NCBI RefSeq assembly: GCF_030142075.1
Contig: NZ_CP126241.1
Coordinates: forward strand, 1,984,001 to 2,048,000
DNA: 64,000 bases
Source: Arthrobacter sp. zg-Y20
GTDB taxonomy: Bacteria > Actinomycetota > Actinomycetes > Actinomycetales > Micrococcaceae
Reading direction: 5' to 3'
In this document: one piece after another, positions 31,364 through 62,427 of the stretch
Layout of the letters: each line of letters opens with the position of its first letter
Numbering within the stretch: position 1 is the stretch's first letter
Notes under the pieces: generated by a model
The model's input: only the letters and a program-made list of their open reading frames with translations
Told to the model about the DNA's origin: nothing
Databases searched by the model: none
Program-made: the position numbers and the translations under genes

Positions 31364-33133
<1,770 letters not shown>

Positions 33134-33183: not shown

Positions 33184-33243
33184 CTAAGCAGGTGCTTGTG
33201 GAGCCTCGCCGCGGCAGCTAAGGAGAAGGATCTCTGCGTGCAC
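33184..33243 (-). CDS. leuA leader peptide (putative leucine attenuator)
   Basis: Nineteen codons from GTG to TAG encode MHAEILLLSCRGEAPQAPA, with three consecutive Leu codons (CTT CTC CTT) after Ile. It lies 77 bases upstream of leuA on the same strand. TAGTGT (33250-33255) is exactly six bases before the GTG, so the transcript probably starts on the leader's first codon. A run of Leu codons in a short ORF before a leucine-synthesis gene is the classic attenuator design. Downstream there is GC-rich inverted-repeat potential but no clear terminator, so the mechanism could also be translational. Confidence 0.75.
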   Translation of the reverse strand: MHAEILLLSCRGEAPQAPA

Positions 33244-53951: not shown

Positions 53952-54947
53952 TCAGGACGCCGGCGACTCCGGCGGTGCGCTGACCGGTGCGGCAAGTGCC
54001 CCGCGCTCACCCGATATGGGCGCACGGTCCCCGACAACCGCGACCGCCAGTACTCCCAGCCCCACGTGGGCGGCAAGAACCGCAGGAAGCGGGCAGATAA
54101 GGATCTCGACTTCGGGTGAAGCTGCCCCGATGAGGCCGGCCAGCCGTTCGGCTTCGGAGGCATTGCCGAAATGGTGCACGGCCGCACGGACCTTCCCGGT
54201 CCGCGCGGCGATGTCCTGCTGCACCAGTTCGGCGAGCCGGGCGAGTGCCTTCGGGGCGGTCCGGACGCGTTCCAGCGGCAGGACCTTCCCGTCGCGGACC
54301 ACGAGGATCGGCTTCACGGCGAAGAGGGTCCCCAGCCAGCCGGCTGCCGCCCCGATACGCCCGCCGCGCCGCAGCTGGTCCAGGCTTGGCACATAGAAGA
54401 GGATGTTCGAATCCGCGCTCACTGCCCGGGCGCAGGCAGCCACGGCCTCGGGCGGACAGCCGGCACGGGCGCTTTCGGCTGCTGCGGCAACGGCAAAACC
54501 GAGTCCCATGGCCGCCGTCGCACTGTCGATAACCTCCACGGGAACAGCTGCCGAGCGGGCGGCAAGCCGCGCGGAGTCCACTGTGCCGGACAGCTGGCCG
54601 GAGAGGTGGACGGACACTACGGAGCTGCATCCGGCAGCAGCCAGTTCGGCGTAGGCCGCCTCAAACCGGCCCGGCGCCGGCCGTGAAGTGCGCACCTCGT
54701 GTCCCTGGGCCAGGGCCATGGCCAGGGCAGGGATCAGTTCCTCGGATCCCTCACCGTAAATCTGGTCTCCGATCATGACCGGCATGGGAACAACCCGCAC
54801 AAACCGTGCCACCTTGGCTGCGTCCGCCCACCCCCGGGGCAGGGCGGCAGCGGAATCCGTCACCACTCCCACGGACGGCCCGGGGACGGCGGCGGTTTCC
54901 CGCTGCCGTCCCTTGGCCCGCGATGCGAGCCGTTCCAGCCAGTCCAT
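53952..54947 (-). CDS. DegV family fatty-acid-binding protein
   Basis: A 331-residue DegV protein. The fold shows GVVTDSAAALP, RTSRPAPGRFEAAYAEL, VSVHLSGQLSGTVDSARLAA and VIDSATAAMGLGF, the strands and Ser/Thr that hold a fatty acid carboxylate. Such proteins (FakB-like) present fatty acids to FakA kinase. No fakA is adjacent. The ATG at 54947 follows the leuS stop by 13 bases on the same strand, so leuS-degV are probably co-transcribed. Confidence 0.88.
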   Translation of the reverse strand: MDWLERLASRAKGRQRETAAVPGPSVGVVTDSAAALPRGWADAAKVARFVRVVPMPVMIGDQIYGEGSEELIPALAMALAQGHEVRTSRPAPGRFEAAYAELAAAGCSSVVSVHLSGQLSGTVDSARLAARSAAVPVEVIDSATAAMGLGFAVAAAAESARAGCPPEAVAACARAVSADSNILFYVPSLDQLRRGGRIGAAAGWLGTLFAVKPILVVRDGKVLPLERVRTAPKALARLAELVQQDIAARTGKVRAAVHHFGNASEAERLAGLIGAASPEVEILICPLPAVLAAHVGLGVLAVAVVGDRAPISGERGALAAPVSAPPESPAS

Positions 54948-54960
54948 GGTTGTCCGGGGC

Positions 54961-57459
54961 CTAGGCCGGGACGATGTTGACGAGTTTCGGCGCCCGTACA
55001 ATAACGGTTCGGATGCCGCGCCCGTCAAGGGTCCGCTGCACTGCCTCGGACGCCAGCGCGGCTTCGCGCAGGTCCTCCTCGGAGATGTCCGCGGCAACCT
55101 CGAGCCGGTCCCGGACCTTGCCCTGGACCTGGACCACGGCGGTCACTGTGTCCTGCACCAGCAGCGACTCGTCGACCGTGGGCCAGCCGGCGTTCACCAC
55201 GGAGGCTTCGCGGCCCAGCAGGCTCCACAGATCCTCCGCTGTGTACGGGGCGAACAGGCTCAGGATCACGGCCACGGCTTCGGCGGCTTCGCGCACTGCC
55301 GGATCGGCGCCGCCCGCACCGGAATCAATGGCCTTGCGGGTGGCGTTGACCAGTTCCATCAGCTTCGCCACCACCACGTTGAACTTGTTGTTCTCCAGCA
55401 GTTCGGTGGCCTCGGCGACGGTCCGGTGGGTTAGCGACCGCAGCTTCTTGTCACCGCCGGAGTAGTCGATGCCCGGTTCGCTCGTAATGTCCTGCCCCAG
55501 GCGCCAGGCGCGGGCCAGGAACTTAGCGGAGCCCGACGGCGAGACATCGGCCCAGTCGACGTCGTCTTCCGGCGGCGAGGCGAAGATCATGGTCAGCCGC
55601 ACGGCGTCGACGCCGTACTTGTCCAGCTGCTGGCCCAGGTCCACACCGTTGCCCAGCGACTTGGACATGGCCTTGCCGCCGTTGAGGACCTGGCCCTGGT
55701 TCAGCAGCGAACCGAACGGTTCGCTGGTTTCCAGCAGGCCCATGTCGTGGACCACCTTGGTGAAGAACCGTGCGTAGAGCAGGTGCAGGATGGCATGTTC
55801 GACACCGCCCACGTACTGTCCGACCGGCATCCAGTTCTTCGCCGCCTCCGGATCAAAGGGTCCGTCGGTGAAATGCGGGGATACAAAGCGCATGAAGTAC
55901 CAGGACGAGTCCACGAAGGTGTCCATGGTATCGGTGTCGCGCTTGGCCGGGCCGCTGCACTTGGGGCAGGCAACGTTGACCCATTCCTCGGCGGAGGCCA
56001 GCGGCGAGGTGCCCTTGGGTGCCAGGGCTTCGCCCTTCAGCCCGGTGGGCAGGGTGACCGGCAGCTGGTCATCCGGAACCGGAACCTCGCCGCACTCGGC
56101 GCAGTGGATGATGGGGATGGGGGTGCCCCAGAACCGCTGGCGGGAGAGCAGCCAGTCGCGCAGCCGGAAGTTCACGAACTTCTCGCCCGTGCCCTGCTCT
56201 TCGAGCATGGCGATGGCGGCCGGAATCGCTTCGGACTTCGGCAGGCCGTCCAGGGCGCCGGAGTTGATCAGGGTGCCTTCGCCGGTGGTGGCAGTGCCGC
56301 TGACGGCGGGATCTTCTTCGCCGGTGTCCAGGACCGCCCGCACGGGCAGGTCGAAGGTCTTCGCGAAGTCCAGGTCGCGCTGGTCATGCGCGGGCACGGC
56401 CATGATGGCGCCGGTGCCGTAGTCGGCCAGCACGTAGTCCGCGGCCCAGACGGGCAGCTTCTCCCCGTTGAGCGGGTTCACGGCGTAGCGGCCGGTGAAG
56501 ACGCCGGTCTTGGTACGTTCGGTGGACTGGCGTTCGATGTCCGAGAGAGCCTTTACCTGCTCGCGGTAGGCCAGCAGGGAATCCATGTTCCCGTCAGTGG
56601 TCAGCTCAACCGCCAGCGGAGCGTCTGCAGCCACCACGAAGAAGGTGGCACCGGCCAGGGTGTCCGGGCGGGTGGTGAAAACGGTGACCTGTTCCTCGGG
56701 CTTGCCCTCGGCAGCCTCGATCGCGAAGCGGACGTGGGCGCCCTCCGAGCGGCCGATCCAGTTCTTCTGCATGGCCAGCACGCGCTCGGGCCAGTGCCCC
56801 TTGAGCTGCTCCATGTCATCGAGCAGCCGGTCCGCGTACTCGGTGATCTTGAAGTACCACTGGTTCAGGGACTTTTTGGTGACCTGGGTGCCGCAGCGTT
56901 CACAGGCGCCGTTGACTACCTGCTCGTTGGCCAGCACGGTCTGGTCCTTCGGGCACCAGTTGACCGGGGAGTTCTTGCGGTAGGCCAGCCCGCGCTCGTA
57001 GAACCGGGTGAACAGCCACTGGGTCCAGCGGTAGTACTCCGGGTCGGAGGTGTGGATGCGGCGGGACCAGTCAACGCTGATGGCGTAGCGCTTGAAGGAT
57101 TCCGCCTGCGTTTCAATGTTGCGGTAGGTCCAGTCGCTGGGGTGCGCATTGTTTTTGATGGCGGCGTTTTCAGCCGGCAGGCCGAAGGAGTCCCAGCCGA
57201 TCGGGTGCAGCACGTCATAACCGAGCTGGCGCCAGTACCGGGCAACGACGTCGCCCATCGCGAACGCTTCGGCGTGCCCCATGTGCAGGTCGCCGGAGGG
57301 GTAAGGGAACATGTCCAGCACGTAGCGGCGTTCGCGGGAGCCGTCATCGGCAGGGGTGAAAACGCCAAGGTCCTCCCAGACCTTCGGCCATTTCTGTTCG
57401 ATGGCCGCGAAACTGTAGACGGCCTCTTCCTGCTGATCAGTCTGTGACTGCGTGCTCAC
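54961..57459 (-). CDS. leuS: leucyl-tRNA synthetase
   Basis: An 832-residue class Ia enzyme charging tRNA-Leu. The HIGH-equivalent [11 protein letters not shown] is at residues 52-62, the KMSKS region reads KAMSKSLGN, and the editing domain and C-terminal anticodon-binding part are complete. The GTG at 57459 is used; upstream in-frame codons lie in a regulatory leader. The leader carries an eight-codon peptide ending Leu-Leu-Leu-Ser and a terminator-like hairpin, indicating leucine-charging attenuation. Confidence 0.96.
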
Positions 57460-57544
57460 TATGTTTCGCCTCTGTCCTGAATGAAAAAATCTTGATCCGC
57501 GCTCCGGGCCGATGCACCGGAAACCTGGTCCTCCCCAGACACAC

Positions 57545-57569
57545 AAAAGCCCCTCGACAAGCAAGGGGC
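57545..57569 (-). terminator. attenuator terminator in the leuS leader
   Basis: On the minus strand GCCCCT, nine bases, AGGGGC, then TTTTG. It lies 24 bases past the leader peptide stop and 86 bases before the leuS start. It could stop transcription when leucine is plentiful. Confidence 0.65.
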
Positions 57570-57570
57570 G

Positions 57571-57593
57571 GCCGCGCACAGACGGTGCGCGGC
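57571..57593 (-). promoter_or_regulatory. first leader hairpin of leuS
   Basis: GCCGCGCAC / GTGCGCGGC, a perfect 9-bp stem with a five-base loop. It begins at the last base of the leader peptide's stop codon, so a ribosome at the stop would melt it while one stalled at the Leu codons leaves it free. It directly precedes the terminator hairpin. Confidence 0.65.
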
Positions 57594-57619
57594 TAGCTAA
57601 GGAGGAGTACTGCGCTCAT
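57593..57619 (-). CDS. leuS leader peptide MSAVLLLS
   Basis: Eight codons from ATG to TAG: Met-Ser-Ala-Val-Leu-Leu-Leu-Ser (CTC CTC CTT AGC). It shares CTCCTTAGCT, encoding the Leu-Ser end, with the leuA leader. TAAAGT (57626-57631) lies six bases before the ATG, so the peptide would be translated from the first base of the transcript. The leucine run, the hairpin pair and the leuS gene after it fit a ribosome-mediated transcription attenuator. Confidence 0.78.
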
Positions 57620-57625
57620 TTCTCC

Positions 57626-57631
57626 ACTTTA
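57626..57631 (-). promoter_or_regulatory. -10 box of the leuS leader transcript
   Basis: TAAAGT on the minus strand, six bases before the leader ATG. The GGAGAA between them is too near the ATG to be a good ribosome site. Confidence 0.55.
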
Positions 57632-57798
57632 CAACAGAGCGTGCGCTCCGGAAGCAGGATGCCGGGGTGAGCCGCAGGGGGAAATTCTGCCCGGCAGCGT
57701 ATCTTTTCCCCTGCTCCGTGCGTCTACCGGTTAAAGGCTGTGGCGCAATGCCATTGTTGGTTCAGGACCGCCGGGGGCGGCCTGTAAAAAGGAGCGAA

Positions 57799-58851
57799 AT
57801 GCCAGTGGATACAAACCCTGCAGTGTCATTGGCGGGCACGGAAAGCGGCAGTGCGGGACTGGGTGGCATTCCGCGCCAACTGCGGCAGGTCCGGCGCGAT
57901 TTCCTGCTCGCCCTGGAGCCGGTCCGCCCTTCCGTTTACCGTTACTGCCGAAGCCTGGCGGGGAACGTGTGGGACGCCGAAGACCTGCTCCAGGAAACCC
58001 TGACCAAGGCATTGGCCGAGGCGTCCCAGCGGCACGAACCGATCCGGAACCTGCAGGCGTGGCTGATCCGCATAGCCACCAACACCTGGCTGGACACCGT
58101 CCGGCGCAGCACCAGGAACACTGTGGCGGACTTCAGCGCCCCGGAGATGGACCGCGCGGACGACGGCGTCGCCGATCCGCTCACCGCCGTGGCGGTGGAG
58201 GCCGCCCTCCGCCGGCTGGTGGATGTCCTGCCACCGAAGGAACGTGCCTGCGTGGTCCTCAAGGACGTATTCGGCTATTCACTGGCCGAAACCGCGGACG
58301 TCCTGGATACCAGCGCCGGTGCAGTGAAATCGGCCCTGCACCGCGGCCGGAACACGCTGGCGGCTGCCCAGGAGGCGCCGTCGCATTCCGACGGCTCGTC
58401 CGGCGGTCCCGCGGCTGTGGCGGTGCCTTCGGCCGGGCACGCCGAACTGCTGCGCCGGCTGGCGGATGCGTTCAACTCCTACGACATTGAGGCCATGGTC
58501 AGCCTGTTCCTGGCGAACGGCCGCACGGAGGTGGTGGGCAATGTCAGCGAAACCGGACACGAGGAAATCCGCACCGGTTCCCTGGACCACACCTTCGGCC
58601 CGGAGGCGCCCGAGATCTACCGGGCCACCGTGCACGAGTTCGACGGCGAGGAGGTCATCCTCCTCTGGGAACGGCCCAAGGACAGCCCTGACGCAGCGGA
58701 AGTGGTGGCCGACGTCGTCCGGATGCGTGCCGCGGAAGGCGTGCCGCTGATTGCGGAGACGAAGGTCTATTTCTTCTGCCCGGAGCTGCTGGAAGAAGTG
58801 GCCGGGGGCCTGGGACTGCCTTTCAAGACCAACGGCCTGTCGTACTTCTGA
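57799..58851 (+). CDS. ECF sigma factor with C-terminal SnoaL/NTF2-like domain
   Basis: A 350-residue sigma-70 family protein. Region 2 is clear in VYRYCRSLAGNVWDAEDLLQETLTKAL and WLIRIATNTWLDTVRR. Region 4 is VLPPKERACVVLKDVFGYSLAETADVLDTSAGAVKSALHRGR. A C-terminal NTF2/SnoaL-like domain (ELLRRLADAFNSYDIEAMVSLFLANGRTEVVG) follows, possibly a ligand sensor or autoinhibitor. No anti-sigma gene is adjacent. The ATG at 57799 has AAAAGGAG upstream; the frame is open earlier without a better site. It is divergent from the leuS leader. Confidence 0.86.
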   Translation: MPVDTNPAVSLAGTESGSAGLGGIPRQLRQVRRDFLLALEPVRPSVYRYCRSLAGNVWDAEDLLQETLTKALAEASQRHEPIRNLQAWLIRIATNTWLDTVRRSTRNTVADFSAPEMDRADDGVADPLTAVAVEAALRRLVDVLPPKERACVVLKDVFGYSLAETADVLDTSAGAVKSALHRGRNTLAAAQEAPSHSDGSSGGPAAVAVPSAGHAELLRRLADAFNSYDIEAMVSLFLANGRTEVVGNVSETGHEEIRTGSLDHTFGPEAPEIYRATVHEFDGEEVILLWERPKDSPDAAEVVADVVRMRAAEGVPLIAETKVYFFCPELLEEVAGGLGLPFKTNGLSYF

Positions 58852-59008
58852 CCGGCAGCTTCAGTGGCTTCCTGCGCTTCCCGGGCCCGAGTGGCGTCCA
58901 CCGCGATGTCGCAGCCGCTGTTGCCCGCTCCTGGCGATGGCGGTGTCCCGGGTAGTCGGGGTTTCCGGCCACATGGAGAACTCGCCACACTGCCGCCTGC
59001 GCGGCACA

Positions 59009-59049
59009 ACGCAGAAGGCCCCGGCGGTAACCGCCGGGGCCTTCTGCGT
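59009..59049. terminator. hairpin between sigma factor and glpK
   Basis: Near-perfect 20-bp palindrome (ACGCAGAAGGCCCCGGCGGT with its complement) between convergent genes. It lacks a strong T-run on either side, but the stem is long enough to terminate in both directions. Confidence 0.7.
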
Positions 59050-59065
59050 CATGCTTTGCGTGGTA

Positions 59066-60589
59066 TCAGTTCACGTCAGCGTCAACCCAGTCGAAGGTCT
59101 TGGTGACGGCCTTCTTCCAGTTGCGCATCTGCCGTTCGCGCTCGGCATCTTCCATGGCGGGGCTCCAGCGCTTGCCTTCATCCCAGTTGCGTCCAAGCTC
59201 GTCAGTGTCGTTCCAGAATCCAACGGCCAGGCCGGCGGCGTAGGCCGCACCCAGGGCCGTGGTCTCGATGACCTTGGGACGCACCACGTCCACGCCGAGG
59301 ATGTCGGCCTGGAACTGCATCAGGGCGTCATTGGCAACCATGCCGCCGTCCACGCGAAGTTCGGTCAGCGGAACACCGGAGTCGGCATTCACGGCGTCCA
59401 GCACTTCGCGCGTCTGGAAAGCGGTGGCTTCCAGCGCGGCGCGGGCAATGTGGTTCTTGTTCACGTAGCGGGTCAGGCCAACCATGGCACCGCGGGCATC
59501 GGAACGCCAGTACGGGGCAAACAGGCCGGAGAACGCCGGAACGATGTACACGCCGCCGTTGTCGTCCACCTGGCGGGCCAGTTCCTCGATTTCCGGGGCG
59601 CTGTTGATCATGCCCAGGTTGTCGCGCAGCCACTGGATCAGCGAACCGGTGACAGCGATGGAACCTTCCAGTGCGTACACCGGCTTGGCGTCGCCCAGCT
59701 GGTAGGCCACGGTGGTGATCAGGCCGTTTTCGGAACGGACAATCTCCTCGCCGGTGTTGAAGATCAGGAAGCAGCCGGTGCCGTAGGTGTTCTTGGCGTC
59801 ACCCTGGGCGAAGGCGGCCTGACCGAAGGTGGCGGCCTGCTGGTCGCCCAGGATGCCAGCGACCGGGGTTTCGCGGAGCAGCTGCGACCCGGCAACCATG
59901 CCGTAGACCTCGGACGAGGAACGGATCTGGGGCATCATGGACTTAGGCACGCCGAATTCCTTGAGGATGTCCTCATCCCAGGTGAGTGTCTCAAGGTTCA
60001 TGAACAGCGTCCGCGAAGCGTTGGTCACATCGGTGATGTGCGCGCCGCCGTCGGGGCCGCCGGTCAGGTTCCAGACGATCCAGGAATCCGTGTTGCCGAA
60101 GATGAGGTCCCCCGCCTCGGCCCGCTCGCGGGCCCCTTCAACATTGTCCAGGATCCACTTGATCTTCGTGCCGGAGAAGTACGTTGCCAGCGGCAGGCCC
60201 ACGGTGTTCTTGAAGCGGTCCAGGCCGCCGTTCTGTGCCAGCTCGTCAACGATGGGCTGCGTGCGGGTGTCCTGCCAGACAATGGCGTTGTATACGGGCT
60301 CGCCGGTGTTCTTGTCCCAGACCACCGCGGTTTCGCGCTGGTTGGTGATGCCGACGGCGGCGATGTCGTGCCGGGTCAGGTTCGCCTTGGAGAGGGCGGT
60401 GCCGACTACTTCGCGGACGTTGGTCCAGATTTCCTGCGGATCGTGCTCGACCCAGCCGGCGTGCGGGAAGATCTGCTCGTGTTCCTTCTGGCCCGTGGAA
60501 ACGATGTTTCCGTCGTGGTCGAAGACGATGGCCCGGCTGCTGGTGGTGCCCTGGTCGATGGCGATGATGTACCTGGGATTATCAGGCAT
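59066..60589 (-). CDS. glpK: glycerol kinase
   Basis: A 507-residue FGGY kinase converting glycerol to glycerol-3-phosphate. ATP and glycerol motifs include [36 protein letters not shown]-like [10 protein letters not shown], and the C-terminal [23 protein letters not shown]. It starts with an ATG at 60589 with AAGGAG nine bases upstream. It follows glpF, giving a glycerol uptake-and-capture pair. Confidence 0.96.
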
Positions 60590-60645
60590 TGTTTCTGCTC
60601 CTTGCGGTGGGGGTATATGGGTGACCGCGGGCGGCGGCCGGTGCG

Positions 60646-61395
60646 CTACAGCGAAATTTCCGGGAGGGGAATCTGGGCGCCGAGGAGGCCGCCCAGGGCG
60701 CCGCCGATCAGCGGACCCACCACGGGGACCCAGGCGTAGGCCCAGTCGCTGTTGCCCTTGTGCCGGATGGGCAGCAAGGCGTGGACGATGCGCGGACCGA
60801 GGTCACGTGCCGGGTTGATGGCGTAGCCGGTGGGGCCGCCGAGGGAGGCACCGATGCCGAGCACTACCAGCGCCACGGCCAGCGGACCCAGTTCGGTCGG
60901 TGTACCTGCGAAGGCAATAATCGTAAAAACAAGCACGAAGGTGCCGATAATTTCGGTAACGAGGTTCCAGCCGTAGGAACGGATGGCCGGGCCGGTGGAG
61001 AAAACGCCCAGGATGTTGGCGGCGTCGGGTTCGTCGTCGAACTGCTTCTTGTACGCCAGCCATGCGACGAAGGCACCAATAATGGCGCCGGCCATCTGGC
61101 CCGCGAAGTAGGTCAGGGCCGCACCGAAGGACACCTCGACACCGGGGGCAAATTCATCGGCACCGCTGGCCCACAGGCCCACGGTGACGGCCGGGTTGAT
61201 GTGTGCGCCGGAAATGGCGGCAGCGTAGACACCGGCAAACACACCGATGGCCCAACCCCAGTTGACCATCAGGAAACCGCCGCCGGCACCCTTCGTCTTG
61301 GCCAGGGCAACGTTGGCTACGACACCGCAGCCAAGAATGATGAGGATGGCGGTTCCCGCCAGCTCACTGATAAAAACTTCTCCCAGAGTCACCAT
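60646..61395 (-). CDS. glpF: glycerol uptake facilitator (aquaglyceroporin)
   Basis: A 249-residue six-helix MIP channel with both half-helix motifs, [11 protein letters not shown] and [10 protein letters not shown]. The second Asp-containing NPARD motif marks aquaglyceroporins. It is upstream of glpK with a 56-base gap. The ATG has a GGAGGAG site. A palindrome 56 bases before the start is a likely operator. Confidence 0.95.
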
Positions 61396-61450
61396 CGACT
61401 CCTCCGATCATTTGTGGCATTCCGCGCCCCAGACGGGTGGGCGGATTTCT

Positions 61451-61468
61451 TTGGTTCTATGCAACCAA
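61451..61468. promoter_or_regulatory. candidate glp operator
   Basis: TTGGTT, six bases, AACCAA: an 18-bp palindrome in the glpF upstream region. It is a natural site for a glycerol regulator (IclR/GylR- or GlpR-like), which is not encoded in the window. Confidence 0.5.
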
Positions 61469-61578
61469 TCTTTTGCAAGAAGCGCCATTACCTTAGCGGA
61501 CCTCTTTGGCGGCACGCCAATTACAGCACGGCAAAACAGGTAGTCAGGTCCGATTCGGCTGGCGGGCGCCCACCTCGG

Positions 61579-61584
61579 TAAAGT
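61579..61584 (+). promoter_or_regulatory. -10 box, leaderless-type, of the aldo/keto reductase gene
   Basis: TAAAGT, six bases before the ATG at 61591; identical hexamer and spacing to the leuS leader promoter. Confidence 0.5.
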
Positions 61585-61590
61585 CATCTT

Positions 61591-62427
61591 ATGCAGCCGG
61601 CACCTCGAATCGAGCTCAATAACGGCGTCCTGATGGACCAAATCGGCTTCGGCACCTACAAGGTTCCGGAAGACAGCGCGGCCGGCCTGTGCCTGACCGC
61701 GTTCGACACCGGTTACCGCCATGTGGACACTGCCGCCCTGTACGGCAATGAAACCGGGGTGGGCGAGGCCGTCAATACCTTCACGGACAGCGGCAGCGCC
61801 GCCCGCGGGGACATTTTTGTCACCTCCAAGGTCTGGAATACGGACCAAGGCTACGACTCCACCCTGCAGGCCTTCGACGACTCCCTCGCGCGGCTCGGCT
61901 TGGACTACTTGGACCTCTACCTGATCCACTGGCCCTGCCCCCGGCGAGGCCTGTTCATTGAAACGTACCGGGCCCTTGAAAGCCTGTACGCCTCCGGCCG
62001 GGTGCGGGCGATCGGCGTCTCGAACTTCCAGCCGGCACACCTGGAGCAGCTGATGGATGCCACCGGAATTGTTCCGGCCGTGAACCAGATTGAGCTGCAC
62101 CCGTGGCTGGCACAGCAGGAACTGCGCGAACTCCATGAGCAGCTGGGCATCCGCACGGTGGCGTGGAGTCCGCTGGGACGCGGTGCCGTCCTGGCCGACC
62201 CGGTCATCGGGCAAATAGCGGGCGAACTGGGCCGGACCCCGGCGCAGGTCATCCTCCGCTGGCACCTGGACCAGGGCAACGTGGTGATCCCCAAGGCCAG
62301 CAGCCCGGAGCGGATTGCGGGGAACCTGGACCTGTTCTCCTTCGAGCTGACGGACGCGCACCGGCAGGCGATTAACGGCCTGGACCGCGGCCAGCGGTCC
62401 GGCTCCCATCCGGATGAGGTCAATTGA
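61591..62427 (+). CDS. aldo/keto reductase
   Basis: A 278-residue (alpha/beta)8 oxidoreductase with the full tetrad Asp46, Tyr51, Lys80, His113 and an NADPH site near IPKASSPERIAGN. It likely reduces 2-keto acids, methylglyoxal or sugar carbonyls; the substrate is not readable. It is divergent from glpF and followed by a hydrolase gene with overlapping stop/start TGATG, and then a glycosyltransferase, forming a three-gene unit. Confidence 0.92.
   Translation: MQPAPRIELNNGVLMDQIGFGTYKVPEDSAAGLCLTAFDTGYRHVDTAALYGNETGVGEAVNTFTDSGSAARGDIFVTSKVWNTDQGYDSTLQAFDDSLARLGLDYLDLYLIHWPCPRRGLFIETYRALESLYASGRVRAIGVSNFQPAHLEQLMDATGIVPAVNQIELHPWLAQQELRELHEQLGIRTVAWSPLGRGAVLADPVIGQIAGELGRTPAQVILRWHLDQGNVVIPKASSPERIAGNLDLFSFELTDAHRQAINGLDRGQRSGSHPDEVN

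Follow-up and report, generated by a model that had tools for sequence, protein, structure and literature searches.

Leader-peptide attenuation of actinobacterial leuS, together with a leaderless version at ilvB, is already in print (PMC1262725, PMC8079986, PMC11857589). In Streptomyces lividans TK24 the leaderless leader LeuL2, equipped with a terminator, is described before leuS (PMC8079986), and leuS attenuators of the classical type were listed as predictions for S. coelicolor and S. avermitilis in 2005 (PMC1262725). The ilvBNC operon of Corynebacterium glutamicum is described as carrying abutting antiterminator and terminator hairpins that were tested by mutation (PMC11857589). Work on S. 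coelicolor, as cited in PMC1262725, found ilvB leader codon changes without effect and leuA leader changes inconsistent with classical attenuation; by analogy, these results would count against the model that we favor for the leuS leader.

The window analyzed here, a stretch of 64,000 nucleotides of the Arthrobacter sp. zg-Y20 genome, contains the following elements upstream of leuS:

57626..57631, minus strand: -10 element TAAAGT, six bases 5' of the leader ATG
57593..57619, minus strand: leader peptide MSAVLLLS, 8 codons, ATG at 57619, stop codon TAG
57599..57607, minus strand: candidate control codons CTC CTC CTT (Leu-Leu-Leu), codons 5-7 of the leader
57571..57593, minus strand: hairpin H1, perfect 9 bp, its first base being the G of TAG
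57549..57569, minus strand: putative intrinsic terminator hairpin, 8 pairs, loop of 5, one base 3' of H1
57539..57548, minus strand: U-tract TTTTGTGTGT, the short tail of the terminator hairpin
54961..57459, minus strand: leuS, leucyl-tRNA synthetase, 832 aa, GTG start, the presumed controlled gene

The first-pass annotation had described a -10 box six bases before the ATG, the peptide MSAVLLLS with its three Leu codons, a perfect hairpin at the stop codon (the 9 bp of H1), and then a second hairpin (the 8 pairs of the terminator) with a short U-tract; all of these were confirmed, position for position. The identity of leuS is supported by NCBIfam (TIGR00396 leuS_bact, E 8.7e-294). From the ATG onward, the first 90 nt give a fold of -44.1 kcal/mol (z -3.07, with 1 of 200 shuffles equally good); for the whole 161 nt from the ATG to leuS the z score is only -1.55, with 15 of 200 shuffles equally good. 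In 57400-57800 a terminator scan gave three sites where 0.4 would be expected, and two of these are overlapping versions of the terminator hairpin in the leuS leader. Since no two-hexamer sigma-70 consensus promoter was found in 57400-57800, the promoter call depends solely on the conserved -10 element; judged from it, the mRNA would be leaderless, with transcription presumably starting at or beside the ATG. Rfam (4227 families) gave no match at the leader up to E = 1 in a search of 54000-62000; five weak matches elsewhere were regarded as chance. The neighboring genes are a DegV family gene downstream of leuS (53952-55097, minus strand) and, upstream on the opposite strand, a sigma-70 family gene with regions 2 and 4 (57667-58851, plus strand).

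As described in the literature, LeuL2 shares with the present leader a short peptide translated from a leaderless mRNA (here a predicted one), three Leu codons, a hairpin with U-tract, and leuS as the next gene, but it has 12 residues and its stop lies inside H1, whereas the window peptide has 8 residues and its stop lies directly before H1. The ilvBNC leader of C. glutamicum and the ilvB-II motif, as outlined in PMC11857589 and PMC10272879, likewise combine branched-chain control codons with a hairpin that abuts a terminator with U-tract. The ilvBNC leader is reported to be leaderless, and H1 occupies the place of its antiterminator hairpin (PMC11857589). The gene and the codons are different, and in the published outlines the two ilvB hairpins have a GCC trinucleotide in common, with a further hairpin over the leader; neither feature was seen at leuS by inspection. 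The LEU element of leuA is another actinobacterial leader with a Leu codon run, but its description (PMC1262725) gives a pseudoknot and a pairing with the leuA ribosome-binding site, and no terminator, whereas the leuS leader has a terminator; on inspection of leuS, the Leu run showed no conserved pairing to the ribosome-binding site of the gene. With enteric peptide attenuators such as E. coli thrL the leuS leader shares control codons, a short leader ORF and a terminator, although it differs in that the 5' arm of the terminator is not captured in the stalled state. The T-box (RF00230) also has tRNA synthetase genes as targets, but it had no match at leuS, its sole match in this genome lying before ileS.

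Conservation of the leader was examined in 161 leuS upstream regions, namely those of the window, 28 other genomes of the same genus, 52 of 114 other genomes of the family, and 80 named loci (the best 80 of 585); nine of the 161 are shortened by contig ends. Regions were selected by the presence of a short ORF with LLL or LLxL and of TANNNT 6-8 nt before its start. This rule picked out 77 of the 161 regions, 50 among the 81 from window, genus and family and 27 among the 80 named ones; the TANNNT element is therefore present in the 77 by definition. In 20 rounds of dinucleotide shuffles the rule found on average 0.1 of the 81 near regions and 0.0 of the 80 named regions, and it found none on the reverse strand or with triple runs of each of the 19 other residues. 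Loss of the Leu codons in relatives had been set beforehand by the first-pass annotation as what would speak against an attenuator. In fact all 28 same-genus relatives keep the leader, with LLL in 27 and LLNL in one, and with TAAAGT six bases before the leader start in 27 and TACAGT in the remaining one. The Leu codons vary synonymously, the first being CTC, CTT or CTG and the second CTC, CTT, CTG or TTG, and once AAC. Constraint is strongest at the third, where 58 of 61 distinct leaders use CTT and 3 use CTA, and CTT is otherwise rare, accounting for 8 of the 178 Leu codons in four window genes.

Forty-eight of the 77 regions, hand-picked for diversity, went into a covariance model, R1, and match it by construction. 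Among the 84 regions missed by the rule it found 12 further matches (E <= 2.2e-6), a weaker hit, L114, with E 0.061 not being counted, so that rule and model together recognize the leader in 89 of the 161 regions. It is absent or unrecognized in the other 72 (nine of all 161 being the shortened ones), and none was recognized in any of the 16 named loci from genera that we take to be Microbacteriaceae.

In its own genome the element is the one strong R1 match (1.2e-17, the next being 0.7), and the four weak hits L164-L167 (E 0.7-2.9) were rejected on inspection as not being leuS-type devices. Across the class, 184 of 394 genomes, the own one included, match R1. The first-pass annotation had called such a device less usual for a synthetase gene in actinobacteria; these counts and the Streptomyces precedents, as outlined in PMC8079986 and PMC1262725, speak against that view. 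All of the best 30 R1 loci, four of which (the own locus and three others) were part of the model, have an LLL leader with TANNNT. The gene directly downstream is leuS at the own locus and at 28 of the 29 others, the contig ending shortly past the element in the remaining one (L193). The LeuRS proteins encoded at the best loci fall into a closer group, about 58-87% identical to that of the window, and a distant group, about 37-53% identical; thus, the device accompanies both LeuRS groups. At L188, which matches R1, the leader is exactly MRAVRLLLSEPR, letter for letter that of S. lividans LeuL2. One assembly (G350) has two differing leuS-like genes, each with its own LLL device (L204 and L205), a pair that may reflect assembly contamination. 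The R1 model could seed an Rfam-type family.

The two hairpins were examined for covariation in alignment A1, where changes on both sides are observed in 7 of the 9 H1 pairs and 3 of the 8 terminator pairs. In total 70 cells are changed on both sides, compared with 20.7 +- 3.3 in shuffled alignments, none of 500 shuffles reaching 70; six slid controls were all lower (1-34). The spacing is nearly fixed. Among 61 distinct elements, identical rows being counted once here as in the codon counts, the last Leu codon is separated from H1 by 5 unpaired bases in 49, 4 in 8, 3 in 2 and 1 in 2. This count leaves out L120, L125, L069, L075, L022, L133 and L046, in which the call of the terminator or of the register was wrong or missing. 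The gap between H1 and the terminator is 0-3 bases in all 61, while the length of H1 ranges over 19-58 nt. The TAG stop lies immediately 5' of H1 in 52 elements; in the other nine the stop lies 12-30 nt past the Leu codons, in or behind the 5' arm of H1, yet H1 follows the last Leu codon after 4 or 5 bases here too. The 4-5 free bases before H1 would, according to the folding model, let it fold with a ribosome on the Leu codons and open once the ribosome has passed.

Folding with a ribosome footprint, as suggested in the first-pass annotation, gave a divided answer: H1 does depend on ribosome position, but capture of the terminator 5' arm was not observed with the ribosome at the first or second Leu codon. 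In equilibrium folding, 74 of 76 leaders kept a terminator probability of at least 0.90 wherever the ribosome was placed, the two exceptions being miscalled terminators. The E. coli thr attenuator, a proven attenuator used as control, behaves alike, and the equilibrium probability was dropped as a test of attenuation. Its place was taken by a nascent-RNA test, in which the RNA ends before the 3' arm of the terminator. In the thr control the 5' arm of the terminator was then captured at 1.0 on Thr and Ile codons, 0.61 at the last Thr and 0.0 at the stop codon. This test and that of flank stability used 60 leuS elements, with L133 and L046 kept; both were left out of the 58 used for the ribosome edge. 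All 60 elements had a free terminator 5' arm when the ribosome stood at Leu1 (paired upstream 0.01 on average, at most 0.16). Capture of this arm at more than 0.5, as a classical 2:3 antiterminator would require, was seen in 0 of 60 at Leu1, 0 of 60 at Leu2 and 9 of 60 at Leu3.

The part of the nascent leaders that depends on ribosome position, as computed, is H1, its base being closed on the Leu codons and open beyond. With the ribosome edge at +9 from the A-site codon, pairing of the H1 base at Leu1, Leu2, Leu3, the next codon and the stop codon was 0.90, 0.89, 0.73, 0.23 and 0.18; with the edge at +13 it was 0.89, 0.55, 0.18, 0.15 and 0.11, so that a stall at Leu3, the most constrained codon, would already open H1. 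Measured from the P-site codon, the leading edge of a ribosome against a duplex lies at about +11 or +12, and for this reason we prefer the +9 case, with H1 intact on every Leu codon and opening just after. In the ribosome-free leader of the window the terminator stays at 0.98. It falls to 0.02-0.86 in six leaders of the same genus (L102, L103, L104, L108, L109 and L110), because the Leu codon run can pair there with the 3' arm of the terminator; an untranslated leader might read through in these six.

R1 also gave weaker matches, mostly the second or third in a genome. Of those listed, 29 places (9 + 20) were taken, of which 14 precede cimA, 12 precede ilvB and 3 precede leuS; all 26 cimA and ilvB genes were confirmed by NCBIfam, as was one of the three leuS genes, the other two being recognized by sequence motif. 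The leaders of cimA, encoding citramalate synthase (L197-L203, L213, L216-L218, L220, L225 and L229), finish in Ile runs such as IIIP, IIIR or IIIS, with at least two Ile in 13 of the 14. The 12 ilvB leaders have mixed Ile, Leu and Val codons, with endings such as ILVLH, ILVVS and VVVLT. A spacing of 5 or 6 to H1 is seen in 12 of the 14 cimA leaders, the other two folds being cut at the wrong terminator by the automatic call; at ilvB it is looser, 3 in seven leaders (in six of which the stem includes the whole TAG) and 4-6 in five. With starts chosen automatically, no more than 2 of 14 cimA and 3 of 12 ilvB leaders had TANNNT at a distance of 5-8 nt from the start, and leaderless starts are therefore unsupported at these genes. 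At leuS, cimA and ilvB alike, the control codons correspond to the amino acid of the gene, which argues that charged tRNA is the sensed quantity; this match is, on comparative grounds, the best evidence for such sensing, and the natural codon swap makes a clean argument that the leaders read amino acid supply. Our search of the open-access literature found no paper on cimA leader peptides or attenuation, or on leuS leaders of the Micrococcaceae, nor did the spacing of 4-5 free bases before H1 come up in the papers that it yielded.

We consider it very probable that the leuS element is a leucine-responsive, ribosome-mediated transcription attenuator. The parts of the device, their conservation, the pairing of H1, the identity of the codons with the amino acid of the gene and the near-fixed spacing are apparent from sequence and comparison. 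Three hallmarks of an attenuator were found at this level: a short ORF with a matching codon run, a terminator between it and the gene, and a computed structure (H1) that depends on ribosome position, the outcome at Leu3 depending on the assumed edge. The peptide attenuator proposed in the first-pass annotation thus gains from conservation, synonymous Leu codons, H1 covariation and the cimA/ilvB swap, while its classical antiterminator was not found. In the mechanism that we propose, a ribosome would translate MSAVLLLS on a leaderless mRNA starting at or next to the ATG. With ample charged tRNA-Leu it would reach the stop codon and open H1, and the terminator would keep most transcripts from reaching leuS. 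Under a shortage of charged tRNA-Leu the ribosome would wait on the Leu codons, and H1 would form tightly between the front of the ribosome and the foot of the terminator, allowing more read-through into leuS. For the leuS leader we infer the transcription start, termination, stalling and response to leucine. The least certain part is the manner in which H1 would weaken the terminator, and the chances that it is a pro-expression hairpin at all seem about evenly balanced. The near-fixed spacing and the abutting hairpins offer a testable alternative to the textbook antiterminator. A more general scheme, to which we give limited credence, would be a single actinobacterial attenuator design re-keyed by codons (Leu at leuS, Ile at cimA, Ile/Leu/Val at ilvB), with H1 as a gauge of ribosome position about five bases past the last control codon, acting on the abutting terminator by position, without shared base pairs or a classical antiterminator. 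If the attenuator is real, leucine supply would be tied to the dose of leucyl-tRNA synthetase over a broad range of Actinomycetes, with no T-box involved.

The polarity of H1 may be the opposite in an otherwise identical attenuator, with H1 as a protecting (1:2) hairpin, a reading that we find rather doubtful but worth weighing. A ribosome stalled at Leu3 would cover H1 at its CCGC base and so release the 3' arm GCGGC, which would hinder the terminator, and leuS would be read, while H1 and the terminator would both form once ribosomes finish and leave. The constraint on the third codon fits such a role for Leu3, as does the opening of H1 by a Leu3 stall with the edge at +13. When H1 is open in the nascent RNA, some upstream pairing of the terminator 5' arm is indeed seen (0.28 with the ribosome at Leu3, exceeding 0.5 in the nine elements counted above), but this pairing is equally strong with the ribosome at the stop codon (0.36, exceeding 0.5 in 14 of 59), which gives no discrimination from Leu3, and it is weak beside the 1.0 of the thr control. 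Moreover, stalls at Leu1, and mostly those at Leu2, would leave H1 closed and give no induction. It was also considered that H1 lends its 3' arm to the U-tract or withholds it, an extended terminator existing only with H1 open. In many leaders, folds with the base of H1 blocked do have GCGG-UUGU pairs beneath the terminator, and 85.8% of cells are able to pair; yet these pairs lack covariation (398 of 500 shuffles reach the score), and the real flanks, at -3.5 kcal/mol against -3.7 for shuffled ones in 60 sequences, are no better. The extended terminator was rejected on these two grounds, and we regard it as extremely unlikely.

No more credible, in spite of the missing two-hexamer consensus in 57400-57800, is an untranslated short ORF next to a terminator that either acts constitutively or is part of the upstream region. 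The near-zero shuffle and reverse-strand controls, the synonymous Leu codons and the codon swap at cimA and ilvB all argue against it, as does the homologue in S. lividans, which is described as being transcribed leaderless. Translational control as at leuA, with the Leu run pairing near the leuS ribosome-binding site, is very improbable. In the window fold the Leu run does pair with CUGGGGAGG just 3' of the terminator, but CUGGGGAGG is not located at the leuS ribosome-binding site, and by inspection the complement is kept in part of the genus only and not in other genera; the pairing to GGGGAGG that the window fold shows 3' of the terminator was rejected by inspection as not kept across genera.

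Several further amino-acid leaders are seen in this genome. Its ilvB gene (L230) has the leader MQIVPVVLIKRVA followed by a hairpin and a terminator in a similar layout, with no TANNNT at the usual distance as read from the sequence; for cimA, only a partial match was found, below the cut-off and within leuA. A T-box match (L001, G000:C1:2208286-2208485, minus strand; E 4.2e-5, below the gathering score) lies just before ileS, whose identity is given by TIGR00392 (E 3.6e-135 on the partial sequence). This weak match adjoining ileS suggests that in this genome ileS is under T-box control and leuS under that of a leader peptide. Within the window, leuA is preceded at 33184-33243 on the minus strand by a leader with a GTG start, MHAEILLLSCRGEAPQAPA, with TAGTGT six bases upstream and the leuA ATG at 33106. 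It is of the LEU-element type, much like S. lividans LeuL1. Thus the window contains two leucine leaders, those of leuA and leuS, and CTCCTTAGCTGCCGCG at leuA resembles CTCCTTAGCTAGCCGCG at leuS.
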